DNA of 64,000 bases. It comes from Chthoniobacter flavus. Its GTDB lineage: Bacteria > Verrucomicrobiota > Verrucomicrobiia > Chthoniobacterales > Chthoniobacteraceae. A program made the position numbers and the translations under genes. Shown here in pieces: positions 18,670 to 32,135 of the stretch. The stretch's first letter is position 1. Every line of letters starts with the position of its first letter. Under the pieces are notes generated by a model. It was not told where the DNA came from. It saw only the letters and a list, made by a program, of their open reading frames with translations, and made no database searches. The DNA lies in NCBI GenBank assembly GCA_945861435.1, contig CAMAUX010000003.1, positions 1 to 64,000 on the forward strand, given 5' to 3'.

Positions 18670-20460
18670 ATGAATTTCCCGCGTTTCCTCCGCCTGCTGG
18701 TCTCCGCGATGAGTGTGTTTGTGTGGTGCGCTGGCGCGCGGGCCGAACGTCCCATGGTCCGTCCGCCCAACGTGCTCGTCATCCTTGCGGACGATCAGGG
18801 GTGGGGGGATTTGGGCGTGAACGGGAACACGGATATTGCGACTCCGCGCATCGATGCACTGGCGCGATCAGGCGCGACCCTCGAGCATTTCTACGTCTGC
18901 CCTGTGTGTGCGCCGACGCGGGCGGAGTTCTTCACGGGGAGGTTCTACGCGCGCACCGGTGTGCAGGGCGTGAGCACCGGTCAGGAACGGCTGAACCTCG
19001 ATGAAACCACGATTGGCGACGTGTTCCAGCGCGCGGGTTACGCGACAGGCGCTTTTGGAAAATGGCACAATGGAACCCAGTGGCCCTATCATCCCAACGC
19101 GCGCGGATTTCAGGAGTTCTACGGCTTTTGTTCGGGCCACTGGGGGCATTACTTCGATCCGGAGCTCGATCACAACGGACGGATGGTGCGGGGCAAGGGG
19201 TTCATCATCGACGACCTCACCGAACACGCCATGGCGTTCATGGCGGAGAACCGGGCGCGTCCGTTCCTTTGCTATGTGCCTTACAACACCCCGCATTCGC
19301 CGATGCAGGTGCCGGAGCGTTTCTACGCGAAGTTTGCGGGCAGGGAGATCACCCAGCGCAGTGTGCGTCCCATGGACGAGGATCTGGCACACACGCGCGC
19401 CGCGCTGGCCATGTGTGAGAACCTCGACTGGAACGTGGGCCGGCTCCTCGATCACCTCGACCAACTCGGGCTGAGTAATGACACGGTCGTCGTCTACTTC
19501 AGCGACAACGGTCCCAATGGCTGGCGTTACAATGGCGGATTCAAGGGACGCAAGGGCGCCATCGACGAGGGCGGTGTGCGGTCCCCCTGCTTCGTGCGGT
19601 TTCCAGGAAAAATCCCCGCAGGACTCCGCGTCCCGCAGGTGGCTGGCGCCATCGACCTGCTGCCGACTCTCGCCGACTTCGCTGGTGTGCCTCTTGAATC
19701 CAAGAAGCCCCTCGATGGGCGCAGCTTCCGGGCGCTGCTCACGAGCGCCAATCCTGCGGCGACGCCGTGGGGCGAGCATTTGCTGTACTCAACCCTGTGG
19801 GGCGGCAAGGGTGCGTTCAGCGTGCGCAGTCAGGAGCACCGACTCGACGCCGCGGGCGGATTGTATGCGATCGATCGCGATCCGGGGCAGATGCAGAACC
19901 TCGTGTCCGAGTTTCCGCAGGAGGCCGCGCGTTTGCGGAAGGCGGGGGAGGAGTTCATGGCGAGTCTGCCGGCGAGCTTCAAGGTGCGCGACGCGCGGCC
20001 GTTCACTGTGGGTTATGCGGCCTCCACGCCGCTGCCGGCGCGTGATGGTGTTGCGCACGGCACGGTGAAGCGGAGCGCGAAGGCGCCCAACTGCTCCTAC
20101 TTCACGCACTGGACCAAGCCCGAGGATGAGATCACGTGGGAGGTCGAGGTGGCCGAGGCTGGAGAGTATGAGGTGGTGCTGTACTACACCTGTGCGCCGG
20201 AGAACGTGGGTGCGGTTGTCGAGTGCAGCTTCGAGGGGCAGAGCGTGCGTGCCAAAGTCAGCGAGGCGAACAACCCGCCGGCGATCGGTGCGGCGGACGA
20301 CAGGTCGGAGAGGGTGGGGGAGTCTTATGTGAAGGATTTCAAGCCCATGAGCCTCGGCCGGCTTCAGTGCAAAGCGGGCCGCGGCACACTGCGTCTGCGG
20401 GCCCCGGAGATTCCCGGGAGCGCGGCTGTGGAGGTGCGGTACGTGGTGCTTCAGCGCTGA
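18670..20460 (+). CDS. Secreted sulfatase with C-terminal beta-sandwich region
   Basis: This 596-residue exported arylsulfatase-family enzyme has a signal peptide ending ARA, PNVLVILADDQGWGDLG with metal-binding aspartates, and the formylglycine motif CAPTR at residues 80-84. FGKWHNG and YFSDNGPNGWRYNGGFKGRKGAIDEGG complete the active-site set. The sulfatase core ends near residue 440. About 150 further residues resemble a carbohydrate-binding beta-sandwich (HWTKPEDEITWEVEVAEAGEYEVVLYYTC), so a polysaccharide substrate is plausible. The Cys must be oxidised to formylglycine by an enzyme not encoded here. An alternative ATG at 18652 adds six residues. A tandem-repeat array begins about 11 bases after the stop. 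Confidence 0.9.
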   Translation: MNFPRFLRLLVSAMSVFVWCAGARAERPMVRPPNVLVILADDQGWGDLGVNGNTDIATPRIDALARSGATLEHFYVCPVCAPTRAEFFTGRFYARTGVQGVSTGQERLNLDETTIGDVFQRAGYATGAFGKWHNGTQWPYHPNARGFQEFYGFCSGHWGHYFDPELDHNGRMVRGKGFIIDDLTEHAMAFMAENRARPFLCYVPYNTPHSPMQVPERFYAKFAGREITQRSVRPMDEDLAHTRAALAMCENLDWNVGRLLDHLDQLGLSNDTVVVYFSDNGPNGWRYNGGFKGRKGAIDEGGVRSPCFVRFPGKIPAGLRVPQVAGAIDLLPTLADFAGVPLESKKPLDGRSFRALLTSANPAATPWGEHLLYSTLWGGKGAFSVRSQEHRLDAAGGLYAIDRDPGQMQNLVSEFPQEAARLRKAGEEFMASLPASFKVRDARPFTVGYAASTPLPARDGVAHGTVKRSAKAPNCSYFTHWTKPEDEITWEVEVAEAGEYEVVLYYTCAPENVGAVVECSFEGQSVRAKVSEANNPPAIGAADDRSERVGESYVKDFKPMSLGRLQCKAGRGTLRLRAPEIPGSAAVEVRYVVLQR

Positions 20461-20470
20461 GGGGTTTGGA

Positions 20471-20503
20471 GTGGACGTGGACTACATGGACTACATGGAC
20501 GAG
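20471..20503. repeat. Left 9-bp tandem array (GGACTACAT units)
   Basis: GGACTACAT occurs twice in tandem at 20479-20487 and 20488-20496, flanked by partial copies GGACGT before and GGACGAG after. The array starts about 11 bases after the sulfatase stop. Its orientation is opposite to the GTCCAT-type repeats at 20551-20580 and 21184-21250, so the arrays can pair. Confidence 0.85.
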
Positions 20504-20550
20504 GTAAGCTGCGTCACGGTCGCAGCGCCAAGTTCTCAAGCGAGGGCGCT

Positions 20551-20580
20551 GTCCATAAAGTCCACATTTCGGTGGTCATG
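20551..20580. repeat. Degenerate inverted partner repeats at the end of the four-helix-bundle gene
   Basis: GTCCATAAAGTCCA at 20551-20564 followed by GGTCATGG at 20574-20581 is in the reverse orientation to the GGACTACAT array 50 bases to the left. GTCCATAAAGTCCA recurs exactly at 21184-21197, on the other side of the four-helix-bundle gene, so that gene sits between direct copies. The stop codon of the gene (20576-20578) lies inside the element. Confidence 0.75.
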
Positions 20581-21148
20581 GAAACGGGGTTTGGCGGCGA
20601 GCAGTGGCACGCTTCCTGTAGAGTCGCTCGGTGAAACCGCCCTCCTTTTCAAACGTATCAGCCAAAGCTGTGATCTGGCGGTCAAGGAGCGAGCAGGCCA
20701 CCACGATGAGGGTCAGTCCTGCGTTAGCGGCGAGCTCCCGGTAGGTGGAACCATGGCGGTGCATCTCGGCGATACAGGTGGCGACCTCCTCTACGCTGCC
20801 ACAACGGCGCGCAATTAATGCGCTGCGGCGCCAATCGTCGTGTGCCCATTGGGAAAAACTCTGCTGACGCAAAAAGTCCTCATAATCGAGCCGCAGTTCC
20901 TCAAGGCTTGCACGCGCCACGTTGGTAAGCTTGAGCTCGGTTTTCTTTGAGGTGCCGGCGGCACAGCTGCCTTCGGCAATGTTCTGCACACCGCTGCGCG
21001 CGGCCTGGATCATCTGATCTCGCGTACGGCTTTGGCGCTCGATATAGCGCCCACAGAAGCGCTCCGTGAAGTCGTACACAAGCAGCGCCATCTGAAAGCT
21101 CTTGAGCCGCCGAAACCCACCATGCGAGGGAAGAAGCGGCTCGCCCAT
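20576..21148 (-). CDS. Four-helix-bundle protein with four-helix-bundle suffix domain
   Basis: The 190-residue product has two parts. Residues about 15-98 match the S23/23S rRNA intervening-sequence protein family (TIGR02436), with RSGVQNIAEGS at 51-61 and ELKLTNVARASLEELRLDYEDFLR at 71-94. Residues about 100-185 match what I know as the four-helix-bundle suffix domain, with TLIVVACSLLDRQI and FEKEGGFTERLYRKR. The family is helical and oligomeric, and its function is unknown; relatives lie inside 23S rRNA insertions or act as Avd with diversity-generating retroelements. I chose the ATG at 21148; the frame is open upstream through the repeat array as GRHGRHGRHG, which is unlikely to be protein. 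The gene is bracketed by 9-bp repeats and lies against its neighbours' strand. Confidence 0.85.
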   Translation of the reverse strand: MGEPLLPSHGGFRRLKSFQMALLVYDFTERFCGRYIERQSRTRDQMIQAARSGVQNIAEGSCAAGTSKKTELKLTNVARASLEELRLDYEDFLRQQSFSQWAHDDWRRSALIARRCGSVEEVATCIAEMHRHGSTYRELAANAGLTLIVVACSLLDRQITALADTFEKEGGFTERLYRKRATARRQTPFP

Positions 21149-21183
21149 GCTTCCAAACAACGTCCGCCGCCAGCACCACGCCC

Positions 21184-21250
21184 GTCCATAAAGTCCATGG
21201 CATCCACCTAGTCCATGTCGTCCATGTCGTCCATGTCGTCCATGTCGTCC
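21184..21250. repeat. Right 9-bp tandem array (GTCCATGTC units)
   Basis: GTCCATGTC is repeated four times exactly at 21211-21246, followed by GTCC. Degenerate copies (GTCCATAAAGTCCATGG) precede it at 21184-21200. The array begins 36 bases upstream of the four-helix-bundle start codon, so it could carry that gene's promoter or leader. It also lies upstream of the plus-strand DUF1592 gene. Confidence 0.9.
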
Positions 21251-21392
21251 CCGGCCCGCGCGCCGCGCCCGTGCAGTTTCACTCAAAGAAAGTCCCTCCT
21301 CGCTGGTCATACCTCTTGCCGATTCAATGGGGGGCGGTATTCCATTGCCGGGCTTTCCCTCCGATGCCACTCGGCACGCAGCCTCTAGCTCC

Positions 21393-23810
21393 ATGATTCA
21401 CCGCCAACCCATTCTCTCTGCCGCCGTGTCCCTGCTGGCGGGCGTTGCCTCCGTGTGCGCCGCGAGTTGGGACGGTCTGTCCCCCCAGGTGCGCGGCTAC
21501 TTGGAAGCGCATTGCACGGAATGCCACGATGCCGACACGCAGAAAGGCGAGTTCCGCATCGACACCCTCTCCGGCAAGGTCGGGTTCGAGAACACGCCGC
21601 AATGGCTCGAGGTGATGGAACGCATCAACTCCGGGGAGATGCCTCCTAAGAAAGTCAAAAAGCGCCCGGCGGCGCAGGAGAGTGCAGCTGTGGTGGACTG
21701 GCTTTCAGCGCGGATGAAGGAGGGTGAATCCGCACGCATGGCCGCACGCGGGCGGGTCAGCTACAACCGCCTTACTCGCGACGAGTACGTGAACACCGTG
21801 CGCGATCTCATCGGTGTTTGTTACGATGCGGCGGACACCGGCGCTTTGCTTGAGGATCCAGATTGGCACGGGTTTGAGCGGCTCGGCTCCGTGCTGACCC
21901 TGTCTCCCTCCCACATCGAGAAGTATCTCGCGGCCGCGGAGACCATCCTCGCCGAGGCTTATCCCGCCACGAAAGCCGCCCCGATCGACGCCACGTTTCC
22001 CGCCGTCACTTCGGACTCCATTCGGGAGCCGTATCGGAGCGAGTTGGAAGCGAAGGCTCTTCTGGGAAAAGTGCGTTACGAGGTGTGGCCGCGAGATGTT
22101 TTCCGGGGCTCGGTGAGGGAGTCGCTGCCTGAGTCTGGAATCTACGAAATCAGCTACAAGCTCAGCGGGCTCAAGCCTCCCGAGGGCCGCGCGCCCCGTA
22201 TGAAAGTGGTGGAGACCGCCATCGACCGTGTGCTCTTCGAGCAGGACATCGTGGCGCCCGAGGGCGCGCCGATCACCGTGACCTTCCAGAGCCACCTTCC
22301 GAAGGGGCGTCCGCAGATCATGGTCTTCAACGACGTGCCGGGCCTCTCGAACACGCCGATTTCCGGCCGGCATGGATCCAAGCCCTTTGTGAGCATCGCG
22401 GACGGGCGCATCCCATGGCAGATCAAGCTCACCGATGAGGAGGGCCTGGCCCGTTATCCCTTTCTCATCTTTGATTCCGTCACTTGGCGGGGGCCGTTGA
22501 TCTCGGATGCAGAAAAAGCGCGGCGCGCGGAGTACTGGCCCGCCGAAGAGACCAGCATGGAAAAGGTGCGCGAAGGATTGGGACGTCTTGCCCGGCGCGC
22601 CTTCCGCCGGCCGGTGCCGGTCGATGAGTTGGAAAGTTACGTCAAGATCGTCCAGGCGGAGCTGTCCGCCGGCGAGAAACCGCCTGCTGCGGTGAAAGCC
22701 GGCATGCTCGCGATCTTCTGCTCGAAGAGCTTCCTCTTCCTTGCCGAGGGCGCTGAGAACACGGACCGCCACACGCTCAACGACTGGGAGATCGCCTCGC
22801 GCCTTTCGTATCTGCTCTGGAGCACGATGCCCGACGACGAACTCTTCGCTCTTGCGGAAGCCGGGAAGCTCCGGGACAAGGCGGAGCTCGCGCGTCAGAC
22901 GGCCCGCATGCTGGCTGATCCGCGGGCGCGCCGTTTCAGCGAATCCTTCGCCAACCAGTGGCTGCAATTGCGGAGGGTGGGAACCTTCGCGCCGGACAAG
23001 AAGCTTTATCCTGATTACGACAAGCCGCTCGAGCAGGCCATGGTGACCGAGACGCGCGCCTTCTTCCATGAGGTGCTCCACCGCGGGCTCACGCTCCGCG
23101 AGTTTCTCCATTCCGACTGGAGTATGGTGAACGCCCGGCTTGCGGGCTTCTACGGGCTGCCTCCGCAGGGGGCGCCGGCTGGCGAAGAGTTCCTGCGTGT
23201 CGCGCTGGCGCCTGGGAGCCATCGCGGGGGGTTGCTCACCCATGCCTCCGTACTGTCGCTCACCTCTGATGGCACCCGCCACCGGCCGGTGCACCGCGGG
23301 GCGTGGTTGATGGAGTCCATCTTCGGAAAAGCGCCGCCGCCGCCTCCGGCCAACGTGGAACCCATTCAGACCACGCCGGTGGATTCTCCGAAAGCCACGT
23401 TGCGCGCGAGGCTGGAGGCCCACATCAAGGATCCGCGCTGCTCCTCCTGCCATGCACGGATCGACCCGCTCGGCATCGCCTTCGACAATTACGACGCCAT
23501 CGGTCGTTGGCGCACCGAGGAGGTCGTGGAGGGATCGGGAGAGAATCCTCCGGTCAATCCCGCGGGTTCCCTGCATGACGGCCGCTCCTTCCAGACGCCG
23601 GAGGAGTTCAAGCAACTGCTGCTCGCGGACATCGACACCTTCAACGCCGCCTTCGTCGGAAAGCTGGCCACCTACGCCCTGCGCCGCACGATGAGCTTCG
23701 ACGACCGCTCCCAACTCGCCGCCATCGCTGCAGCGGCAAAAGGCGCGGATTATCGTCTGCGCGATCTTGTGGAGGCGCTTGTCGTCTCTGATCTCTTTCA
23801 AAAACGCTAG
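21393..23810 (+). CDS. DUF1592/DUF1588/DUF1585 cytochrome-type protein, copy A
   Basis: The 805-residue exported protein has a signal peptide (ILSAAVSLLAGVASVCAA) and a planctomycete-type cytochrome c motif CTECH at 41-45. DUF1587 (YNRLTRDEYVNTVRDL) and a carbohydrate-binding-like middle region follow. Next come DUF1595 (RAFRRPVPVDELESYVKIV), DUF1592 (LSYLLWSTMPDDELFALAEAGKLRD), DUF1588 with a second CxxCH at 683-687 (CSSCHARIDPLG), and DUF1585 near the end (TYALRRTMSFDDR). Two heme sites are inferred. The family normally has a DUF1552 partner directly downstream; here the next gene is instead the 416-residue unknown. Residues 32-127 are almost identical to copy B. The ATG at 21393 starts the signal peptide. 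Confidence 0.88.
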   Translation: MIHRQPILSAAVSLLAGVASVCAASWDGLSPQVRGYLEAHCTECHDADTQKGEFRIDTLSGKVGFENTPQWLEVMERINSGEMPPKKVKKRPAAQESAAVVDWLSARMKEGESARMAARGRVSYNRLTRDEYVNTVRDLIGVCYDAADTGALLEDPDWHGFERLGSVLTLSPSHIEKYLAAAETILAEAYPATKAAPIDATFPAVTSDSIREPYRSELEAKALLGKVRYEVWPRDVFRGSVRESLPESGIYEISYKLSGLKPPEGRAPRMKVVETAIDRVLFEQDIVAPEGAPITVTFQSHLPKGRPQIMVFNDVPGLSNTPISGRHGSKPFVSIADGRIPWQIKLTDEEGLARYPFLIFDSVTWRGPLISDAEKARRAEYWPAEETSMEKVREGLGRLARRAFRRPVPVDELESYVKIVQAELSAGEKPPAAVKAGMLAIFCSKSFLFLAEGAENTDRHTLNDWEIASRLSYLLWSTMPDDELFALAEAGKLRDKAELARQTARMLADPRARRFSESFANQWLQLRRVGTFAPDKKLYPDYDKPLEQAMVTETRAFFHEVLHRGLTLREFLHSDWSMVNARLAGFYGLPPQGAPAGEEFLRVALAPGSHRGGLLTHASVLSLTSDGTRHRPVHRGAWLMESIFGKAPPPPPANVEPIQTTPVDSPKATLRARLEAHIKDPRCSSCHARIDPLGIAFDNYDAIGRWRTEEVVEGSGENPPVNPAGSLHDGRSFQTPEEFKQLLLADIDTFNAAFVGKLATYALRRTMSFDDRSQLAAIAAAAKGADYRLRDLVEALVVSDLFQKR

Positions 23811-29445: not shown

Positions 29446-29461
29446 GGCGAGGGGGGAGTGT

Positions 29462-29520
29462 GGACGACATGGACGGGATGGACGGGATGGACGGGATGGA
29501 CGGGATGGACGGGATGGACC
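29462..29520. repeat. 9-bp tandem array (GGACGGGAT x5) upstream of DUF1592 copy B
   Basis: GGACGACAT at 29462-29470 is followed by five exact GGACGGGAT units at 29471-29515 and a partial GGACC. It begins 17 bases after the propeller gene's stop. The orientation equals that of the left array at 20471-20503. Read on the plus strand the frame is open (Met-Asp-Gly repeated) and continues into the DUF1592 gene, but I regard that as a consequence of 9-bp periodicity. Confidence 0.92.
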
Positions 29521-29550
29521 TTTGGCAAGGCAGCGAGCAAGCCGGTCGCG

Positions 29551-29584
29551 TAGTCCATGAAGTCGATGTCGTTCATGATGTCCA
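29551..29584. repeat. Inverted partner repeats with no gene (possible empty site)
   Basis: TAGTCCATGAAGTCGATGTCG and further GTTCATGATGTCCA copies at 29551-29584 run opposite to the GGACGGGAT array 30 bases to the left, so the two can fold together. The layout equals the left junction of the four-helix-bundle locus (20471-20580), but no four-helix-bundle gene is present. Confidence 0.75.
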
Positions 29585-29708
29585 AGGGGCTTTGCCCAGC
29601 CCCAAGAAAGAGGCCGCTCGCGGGTTTACTTCTTGCCGACAACCCGAGATGCGGCGTTCCCTTGCCGGGCTGTTTCCTGATGCCGGCGGGAACGCAGCGT
29701 ACCACCCC

Positions 29709-32135
29709 ATGAAGCGCCGCAATTCCATTCTTTCTGCCGCCGTGTTCCTGCTGGCGGGCGCCGCCTCCGTGTGTGCCGCTGGTTTGGAGGGTCTTTCTTC
29801 GCAGGTGCGAGGCTATCTCGAGGCGCATTGCACGGAATGCCACGATGCCGACACGCAGAAGGGCGAATTCCGCATCGACACTCTTTCCGGCAAGGTCGGG
29901 TTTGAGAACACGCCGCAGTGGCTGGAGGTGATGGAGCGCATCAACTCCGGGGAGATGCCGCCCAAGAAGGTCAAGAAGCGGCCGGCTGCGCACGAGAGCG
30001 CCGCGGTGGTGGACTGGCTGTCGTCCCGCATGAAGGAGGGTGAATCCGCCCGCATGGCCGCGCGCGGACGGGTCAGCTACAACCGGCTCACCCGCGAGGA
30101 GTACGTGAACTCCGTGCGCGACCTGCTCGGCGTGCAGTTTGATGCGACTGATCCGGGCGGTTTCCTTGAAGAGGCTGAGTGGCGCGGGTTCGAGCGTCTT
30201 GGCTCGGTGATGACCCTCTCTCCTTCCAACATCGAGAAGTACCTCGCTGCCGCCGAGACCATCCTCGCGGAGGCCTATCCGGAGAAGAGGGCGCCGCAGA
30301 CGCAGGGCTCGAAGCGGGCCCTCCTAGAGAACCAAGTCAACGAGCGCTATCGTGAGCGCCTCCGCGAGATGGGGTTGCTCGACAAAGTCCGTTTTGAGAT
30401 GTGGCCCGGAGACACCTTCCGGTACTCGAACCTGCAGGATCCCCTGCCTGAGGCCGGTATTTACGAGATCAGCTACACGCTCAGCGGGCTCAAGCCGGAG
30501 AAGGGGCTCGCACCGCGGCTCAAGGTTTACGAGGAGAAGCTCGATCGGGTGCTCTTTGAGCAGGACATCGTTGCGCCGGAGGACGCGCCGGTCACGGTTA
30601 CTTTCCGCACGCACCTGCCCAAGGGGCGTCCGACCATCATGGTGTACAACGAGGTGCCGGGGCCCTCGAACACCCCGCGGTCCGGACGGCACGGGGACAA
30701 GCCCTTCCTGAGCATCAAGGACGGGCGGATTCCGTGGCAGCTCAAGATCACCGATGAAAAGGGTCGGCCGCGCTATCCGTTCCTCATCATGGACTCCATC
30801 GCATGGCGCGGGCCGATTGTTGAGGAGGCGGACCAGAACCGGCGCGATGAGTACCTGTCGCCCGCCGCCATCGCTACGGGGGACATCGAGCAGGCCCGGG
30901 CTGGCCTTGCCAAGCTCTCCCAGCGCGCGTTCCGCCGTCCCGTTACCGAAGCTGAAGTCGATGCGACGATGGAGTTGGTGAAAAAGGAGATCGCGGCGGG
31001 CGAGAAGTTCCGGGATGCCGTGAAAGCCGGGATGCTTTCGATTCTCTGCTCCAAGAGCTTCGTCTTCCTCACTGAAGGCGACCCGGATGCGGACCGGAAT
31101 CAGCTCAACGATTGGGAGATTGCGGCACGCCTTTCCTATTTGTTGTGGAGCACGATGCCCGACGACGAACTCTCCGCACTCGCGGCGCAGGGGCGTCTCC
31201 GTGACAAGGCGGAGCGCGCCCGCCAGTGCGCGCGGATGCTTGCAGATCCGCGTGCGAGCCGATTCACGGACTCCTTTGCGACGCAGTGGCTGCAACTGCG
31301 GAAGGTCGGAAGGTTCCCGCCCGACAAGAAGCTCTATCCGGATTACGACAAGACGCTTGAGGCCGCGATGATTGGCGAGACCAAGGCCTTCTTCCGTGAG
31401 GTCGTGCAGCAGGGGCTCAGTCTCCGCGAGTTCCTCCACTCGGACTGGACGATGCTCAACGCCCGCCTTGCCGAGTTTTACGGGATGCCCGCCAAGGATT
31501 TTGCCCGGGACGCATTTCGACGTGCGGCCCTTTCCGAGGACAGTCGGCGCGGCGGTCTGCTCACGCAGGCGGCGATTCTGTCGCTCACCTCGGATGGCAC
31601 GCGGCACCGGCCTGTTCATCGTGGTGTGTGGCTTTCGGAATCGATTTTTGGCAGGACCCCTCCTCCGCCTCCGGCCAACGTGGAACCCATCGCGACGAAT
31701 CCGGTCGACTCACCGAAGGCGACGCTGCGTATGAAGCTGGAGGCTCACATCCACGATGCGCGCTGTGCTTCGTGCCATGCGAAGATCGACCCGCTCGGTC
31801 TTGCGTTTGAGAACTACGACGCCATCGGCCGCTGGCGGACCGAGGAACTCACGGAGGGCACCGGTGACAACCCGAAGGTCAATCCATCGGGAACCCTTCC
31901 GGACGGTCGTGCCTATGCGGACGCGGCGCAGTTCAAGACGCTTTTGCTCGAGAACCTCGACACCTTTCACGCCACGTTCCTTGAGAAACTCGCCACCTAC
32001 GGTCTGCGGCGCACCACCTCTTTCGACGACCGCGAGGATCTCGCCGCGATCGCGCGGATCGGCAAGGCGCGGGATTACAAGGTGCGCGACCTGCTCGAGG
32101 CTTTCGTCTGCTCGGACTTGTTTGAGAAACGCTGA
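29709..32135 (+). CDS. DUF1592/DUF1588/DUF1585 cytochrome-type protein, copy B
   Basis: The 808-residue paralogue of 21393-23810 has the same order: signal peptide (ILSAAVFLLAGAASVCAA), CTECH at 41-45, DUF1587 (YNRLTREEYVNSVRDLLG), middle sandwich, DUF1595 (RAFRRPVTEAEVDATMELV), DUF1592, DUF1588 with CASCH at 686-690, and DUF1585. Over residues 32-127 only about three positions differ from copy A, while later parts diverge much more. About 105 bases of leader before the start codon also align between copies (TCTTGCCGA, TTGCCGGGCT and ACGCAGC shared). The downstream DUF1552 gene gives the canonical pair. The ATG at 29709 starts the signal peptide; the frame is open upstream through the repeat array. 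Confidence 0.88.
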   Translation: MKRRNSILSAAVFLLAGAASVCAAGLEGLSSQVRGYLEAHCTECHDADTQKGEFRIDTLSGKVGFENTPQWLEVMERINSGEMPPKKVKKRPAAHESAAVVDWLSSRMKEGESARMAARGRVSYNRLTREEYVNSVRDLLGVQFDATDPGGFLEEAEWRGFERLGSVMTLSPSNIEKYLAAAETILAEAYPEKRAPQTQGSKRALLENQVNERYRERLREMGLLDKVRFEMWPGDTFRYSNLQDPLPEAGIYEISYTLSGLKPEKGLAPRLKVYEEKLDRVLFEQDIVAPEDAPVTVTFRTHLPKGRPTIMVYNEVPGPSNTPRSGRHGDKPFLSIKDGRIPWQLKITDEKGRPRYPFLIMDSIAWRGPIVEEADQNRRDEYLSPAAIATGDIEQARAGLAKLSQRAFRRPVTEAEVDATMELVKKEIAAGEKFRDAVKAGMLSILCSKSFVFLTEGDPDADRNQLNDWEIAARLSYLLWSTMPDDELSALAAQGRLRDKAERARQCARMLADPRASRFTDSFATQWLQLRKVGRFPPDKKLYPDYDKTLEAAMIGETKAFFREVVQQGLSLREFLHSDWTMLNARLAEFYGMPAKDFARDAFRRAALSEDSRRGGLLTQAAILSLTSDGTRHRPVHRGVWLSESIFGRTPPPPPANVEPIATNPVDSPKATLRMKLEAHIHDARCASCHAKIDPLGLAFENYDAIGRWRTEELTEGTGDNPKVNPSGTLPDGRAYADAAQFKTLLLENLDTFHATFLEKLATYGLRRTTSFDDREDLAAIARIGKARDYKVRDLLEAFVCSDLFEKR

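Follow-up and report, generated by a model that had tools for sequence, protein, structure and literature searches.

Architecture of the locus

The window (the whole 64,000-nucleotide stretch of Chthoniobacter flavus DNA that was analysed) carries a gene for a four-helix-bundle protein of the S23 family, flanked on both sides by inverted GGACNNNAT arrays; arrays of this kind occur at about 30 places in the genome. From their open reading frames the neighbouring genes are read as a sulfatase-like gene and a DUF1592-like gene. The element and a second pair of arrays further along the window comprise the following features.

20471-20504, plus strand: left array in GGAC orientation, with TGGACTACA units at 20478-20500, 11 bp past the sulfatase stop codon
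20551-20564, no strand assigned: inner repeat GTCCATAAAGTCCA beside the stop codon, 12 bp past the gene's stop
20576-21148, minus strand: four-helix-bundle gene, 190 aa, S23/TIGR02436 family plus TIGR04258 suffix (profiles, AlphaFold2)
20594-20737, minus strand: TIGR04258 suffix match, fourth helix and basic C-terminal helix (profile match, AlphaFold2 model)
21184-21197, no strand assigned: second GTCCATAAAGTCCA copy, upstream of the start codon
21193-21250, plus strand: right array of GTCCATGTC units, opposite in orientation to the left array (TRF, 6.4 copies, 81% matches)
29461-29519, plus strand: array of the dispersed type (TGGACGGGA), without a gene, forming the left half of a convergent pair
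29553-29584, minus strand: degenerate inverted partner of the 29461 array, ~33 bp away, with no gene between

The right array is imperfect from 21193 and includes four perfect GTCCATGTC units at 21211-21246. The outer arrays are 90% complementary over 29 nt (20474-20502 with 21218-21246), and the predicted transcript of the locus closes on them with a fold z of -4.5 (20 shuffles). A known RNA family is ruled out by an Rfam scan of 19500-22500 that returned no match, and the gene is not located inside a 23S rRNA gene. The coordinates given for repeats and gene at 20471-21250 in an earlier note on this DNA hold on re-check, as does its observation of a repeat common to both sides of the gene, i.e. 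GTCCATAAAGTCCA at 20551-20564 and 21184-21197.

Protein family and structure

The window protein scores above the curated cut-offs of TIGR04258 (64.3 bits, cut-off 40, E 6.7e-18) and TIGR02436 (37.6 bits, cut-off 24, E 2e-9) and just under that of Pfam PF05635 (33.3 bits, cut-off 33.8); Pfam and NCBIfam scans of the gene product gave no Y1 (HUH) transposase domain. Its AlphaFold2 model (pLDDT 93) has helices at residues 16-35, 41-63, 68-95 and 136-169, and the modelled protein is a confident four-helix bundle in which the suffix supplies the fourth helix and a basic tail. The two-domain description in the earlier note is thus retained as regards the bundle and not as regards separate domains.

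A sequence search found no solved structure related to the window protein itself; its plain-bundle relatives match 2GSC and 2RLD by sequence, XCC0516 (2GSC) at 8e-22, and XCC0516 is a homopentamer (PMC4990558). Foldseek aligned chain B of PDB 8UB7 to the window model with a target TM of 0.73 and a weak E-value; no Foldseek E-value for the model was significant, as is common for helical bundles. The only neighbours regarded as making family sense are S23 (2RLD) and the Avd protein in a diversity-generating retroelement (DGR) ribonucleoprotein (8UB7).

Dispersal of the repeat in the host genome

With up to one mismatch allowed for it, GTCCATNNNGTCCA has 18 matches in the window where 1.0 is expected, and the three-unit GTCCATNNN has 92 matches (~30 arrays) in the 5.35-Mb genome compared to 0 for its reversed control, together with only one TIGR04258 gene. 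The dispersed arrays are solo or form convergent pairs (GGAC-> <-GTCC) in the same order as around the window gene, and no divergent pairs were seen among them. The majority are solo rather than gene-less pairs, which rules out a strict REP/MITE model in which every dispersed copy is an inverted pair. The gene-less pair at 29461-29584 lies upstream of a DUF1592-like gene (29604-32133) that is a paralogue, 74% identical, of the DUF1592-like gene following the first element.

Arrays of 9 bp at suffix-bearing genes

TIGR04258 was found in 208 of 388 Verrucomicrobiota genomes sampled, and 80 loci from 80 genomes were fetched. Period-9 arrays occur at 77 per 100 kb near these genes compared to 7.3 elsewhere in the same regions (about tenfold), and periods 6, 7, 8, 10, 11, 12 and 15 show no notable enrichment near them. 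A flanking array accompanies 40/80 of the genes (50%) compared to 11/339 unrelated ORFs of the same regions (3.2%), with arrays on both sides at 14/80 and 0/339 respectively (Fisher 1e-23). The earlier note had proposed just this comparison, and its expectation that 9-bp arrays would be enriched at the family in other genomes and scarce at unrelated genes is borne out. No TRF array with any of these short periods lies near 28/80 loci; TRF thresholds miss weak arrays, and many of the genomes are drafts.

The units at TIGR04258 loci vary between genomes (GGGAC, CGGAC, GGAC and others). About 15 of the genes also contain an array themselves, in frame and within the stretch that joins helix 3 to helix 4; in L065, L072, L082, L086, L135, L139 and others these in-frame arrays are 9-bp arrays of the flank type. 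At least ten GGAC-array matches are found in 48/208 gene-bearing genomes compared to 4/180 gene-less genomes, and the co-occurrence of GGAC arrays and gene persists within families (CMH OR 3.9, p 1.3e-4), with shared ancestry only partly controlled. A test of CCTAT-type arrays inside one family gave a weak result, 4/12 against 1/24. Three genomes with no detected TIGR04258 gene have 98, 48 and 36 GGAC-array matches (G017, G079 and G318, respectively), and in G017 the reversed control is nearly as high at 74.

By eye, some TIGR04258 genes lie within other operons: one is beside cas4/cas1-like ORFs (L039:1-2021) and others adjoin restriction-modification-like genes (L033, L041, L377, L379, L380). 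TIGR04258 genes in such operons may account for the CRISPR-adaptation association of "23S rRNA IVP" listed in PMC10910872.

Arrays of 7-8 bp at plain TIGR02436 genes

A number of dispersed direct heptamer arrays of unexplained origin resemble these arrays: TAACTGA (MacGregor 2015), GGGAATC/GGGGATT of Xanthomonas and Nostoc (Rehm 2015) and the cyanobacterial STRR. In the available portions of these papers the arrays are reported without an S23-family gene, whereas here TAACTGA arrays are gene-linked; the main text of Rehm 2015 does not mention XCC0516. MacGregor 2015 could not explain the TAACTGA heptamer, placed most of its arrays immediately before gene starts, and proposed a role in translational control (PMC4679880). 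A (TAACTGA)4 scan of public genomes gave genomes, picked by the repeat, of which 23 of 24 encode TIGR02436, and TAACTGA flanks S23-family genes in Microcystis and in a Chloroflexi MAG; Parabeggiatoa G395 has TAACTGA arrays and no detected TIGR02436 gene.

Since those genomes were picked for TAACTGA, samples not picked for repeats were examined next. Among 89 plain TIGR02436 loci from Cyanobacteriota, Gammaproteobacteria and Bacteroidota, the best-scoring per sample and mostly one per genome, 81 have a 7- or 8-bp array on at least one side, a count that admits a few neighbouring periods and weak arrays. By group, such arrays accompany 28/29 loci in Cyanobacteriota (21 on both sides), 28/30 in Gammaproteobacteria (20 on both sides) and 25/30 in Bacteroidota (only 10/30 on both sides), with period-7 densities near and far from the gene of 123 and 13, 145 and 32, and 61 and 17 per 100 kb, respectively. 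In oriented loci the upstream array usually stops 20-50 bp short of the start codon, and the downstream one sets in near the stop codon. The upstream array has a G-rich strand, and in most loci its unit reappears downstream as the reverse complement.

The length of the unit tracks protein architecture, 9 bp with the suffix and 7-8 bp without it. The rule also applies inside one phylum, as a Verrucomicrobia MAG locus without the suffix (L268) has a 7-bp unit. The earlier note's scope, the suffix-bearing case with 9-bp units, therefore stands within a wider rule that covers the TIGR02436 family with 7-8 bp units. The L268 element (L268:62-2543) is placed between apparent sdhA and sdhB genes, and seven loci have 8-bp rather than 7-bp units (L286, L289, L290, L297, L299, L301, L309), from cyanobacterial-phylum genomes of ~2 Mb.

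Co-variation of unit and protein

Proteins that are more than 75% identical share a unit, allowing one mismatch, in 91% of pairs for 7-mers and 61% for 9-mers, and at 40-50% identity the unit is common to only ~4% of pairs; permutation of the units gave results as extreme in 1/200 (7-mers) and 0/200 (9-mers). Within the window's own family, proteins of 54-67% identity keep GGACNNNAT-type units, and most of those at 44-49% carry others. As judged from these sequence pairs, the repeat unit differs between genes and follows the protein sequence.

Presence, absence and relocation in Microcystis

Two Microcystis genomes share the array-gene-array block at 94% identity across 491 bp, whereas the sequences beyond the block are not homologous, and a comparable block of 456 bp is shared by Fischerella and Scytonema at 86% identity. 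At one Microcystis site (site 1) five genomes have the gene and two lack it; the gene-less alleles of these two consist of a left-array stub followed by arrays of other heptamers; at the same site L388 and L390 stack several different heptamer array families in one intergenic space. Site 2 lies between genes read as a membrane-fusion protein (MFP) and an RND transporter. Here four genomes have array-gene-array, one has a solo TAACTGA array with outer boundaries identical to the gene-bearing alleles, two have paired arrays around short unrelated interiors, and one has a stub and another heptamer array. Two Microcystis genomes have copies at both sites.

These allele comparisons establish presence/absence and relocation of the array-gene-array unit in Microcystis. 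Because other sequence is present in the gene-less alleles, they are compatible both with insertion, as into a solo array, and with loss of the gene. For the window copy no clean empty allele is found in its own family, where the neighbouring genes match relatives at only ~65-71%. The mobile unit proposed in the earlier note is accordingly upheld as a module by the enrichment of arrays at the family, and its mobility is upheld in homologues only, by the Microcystis allele series.

Relation to known systems

In REP/RAYT systems one gene is flanked by inverted copies of a genome-dispersed repeat; the RAYT is a Y1 nuclease, and the REPs are single palindromes. The window element similarly combines one gene with many dispersed matching repeats, and differs in that its protein is without a known catalytic domain and its ends are tandem short arrays. 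The Avd protein of DGRs shares its fold with the window protein (8UB7 chain B, with the weak Foldseek E-value); among the nearby ORFs no reverse transcriptase, and beside the gene no template/variable repeat, was noticed.

The intervening sequences (IVS) of 23S rRNA in Leptospira and Coxiella encode the same protein family, have their ORF inside terminal inverted repeats with a stem of ~28 bp, and have long been suspected of mobility; the 28-bp stem that closes the Coxiella S23 IVS is cut by RNase III (PMC4990558). An inverted-repeat stem around the ORF is also found in the window element (29 nt, 90% complementary). Unlike the IVS, it is outside rRNA, its ends are tandem arrays (7-9 bp units), and its unit is dispersed through the genome. 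A search of the open-access literature (PMC) gave no earlier report of array-bounded S23-family elements.

Interpretation

The gene appears to move jointly with its repeats, as a type of mobile element that had not been recognised before. We would put at about 0.65 the probability that the window locus is one copy of such a widespread element, an S23/Avd-fold gene between inverted arrays of a lineage-private repeat, whose protein would bind the unit and aid the copying of array-bounded sequence. Sequence comparison supplies the grounds: the bracketed architecture with its mirror symmetry, a unit that changes along with the protein, the spread of that unit through the genome as solo arrays and convergent pairs, and presence/absence at orthologous Microcystis sites. 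The protein is probably a ring-forming nucleic acid binder like Avd and XCC0516, and its putative target is its own unit, either as DNA or as the RNA stem of paired arrays. The element itself has no nuclease, recombinase or reverse transcriptase; the bound protein may mark array-bounded sequence and help a host or other enzyme to copy it into intergenic gaps, in which case solo arrays would be partial copies, gene-less relics or landing sites.

That the protein is instead an RNA- or DNA-binding regulator, with the dispersed arrays as its binding sites where genes begin and end, autoregulation through the arrays around its own gene, and a spread selected for regulation rather than selfish, would fit arrays that abut start and stop codons, a unit that follows the protein, and the location of most TAACTGA arrays just upstream of starts with the translational control suggested by MacGregor 2015 (PMC4679880). 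Such a regulator is unlikely, since private units differ even among near relatives, the array-gene-array block occurs as a unit at different sites, and an operator needs no inverted bracketing on both sides. Somewhat less probable again is a passive passenger, in which arrays arise and grow by slippage and recombination in any intergenic gap, homologous recombination between arrays moves the gene, and the role of the protein is unrelated; the accumulation of several array families at one Microcystis site and the excess of solo over gene-bearing arrays are in its favor, whereas inversion, unit-protein co-variation, the tracking of period with suffix and the scarcity of arrays at unrelated genes are not predicted by it.

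An IVS-like element acting at the RNA level, with paired arrays only a stem for excision of the ORF by RNase III so that insertions are harmless, and DNA mobility coming from elsewhere, leaves solo arrays and tandem short units unexplained. This makes a poor candidate for the whole explanation, even with arms close in size to the 28-bp Coxiella stem (PMC4990558), the fold z of the window transcript, and insertions between operon genes (sdhA/sdhB in L268, MFP/RND in Microcystis). Such RNA processing is compatible with the mobile-element explanation, as the mechanism by which the element is tolerated. Chance or assembly artefact, to which the many multi-contig drafts might point, has a negligible probability and is already refuted, since the pattern recurs, against null controls, in genomes from four phyla, both closed and draft.

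Implications for the family

A broader proposal, for which the odds fall a little short of even, would make proteins of the S23/Avd fold the hallmark of a new mobile-element class, bounded at each end by a tandem array of a short unit that the protein reads; the protein architecture would fix the length of that unit, at 7-8 bp for the plain bundle and 9 bp where the suffix is added. Orphan short tandem repeats in cyanobacteria, Beggiatoaceae, Bacteroidota and Verrucomicrobiota would then derive from this class, with rRNA IVS and DGR Avd as its offshoots. If true, the element would account for repeat families that have stood as orphans for decades: dispersed bacterial heptamer arrays have so far been without a known origin, and each private repeat now receives a candidate protein family. 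That family has solved structures (2GSC, 2RLD), and the question is directly testable. A possible role is thereby given to a large family of "unknown function", hitherto known mainly from rRNA insertions and retroelements.
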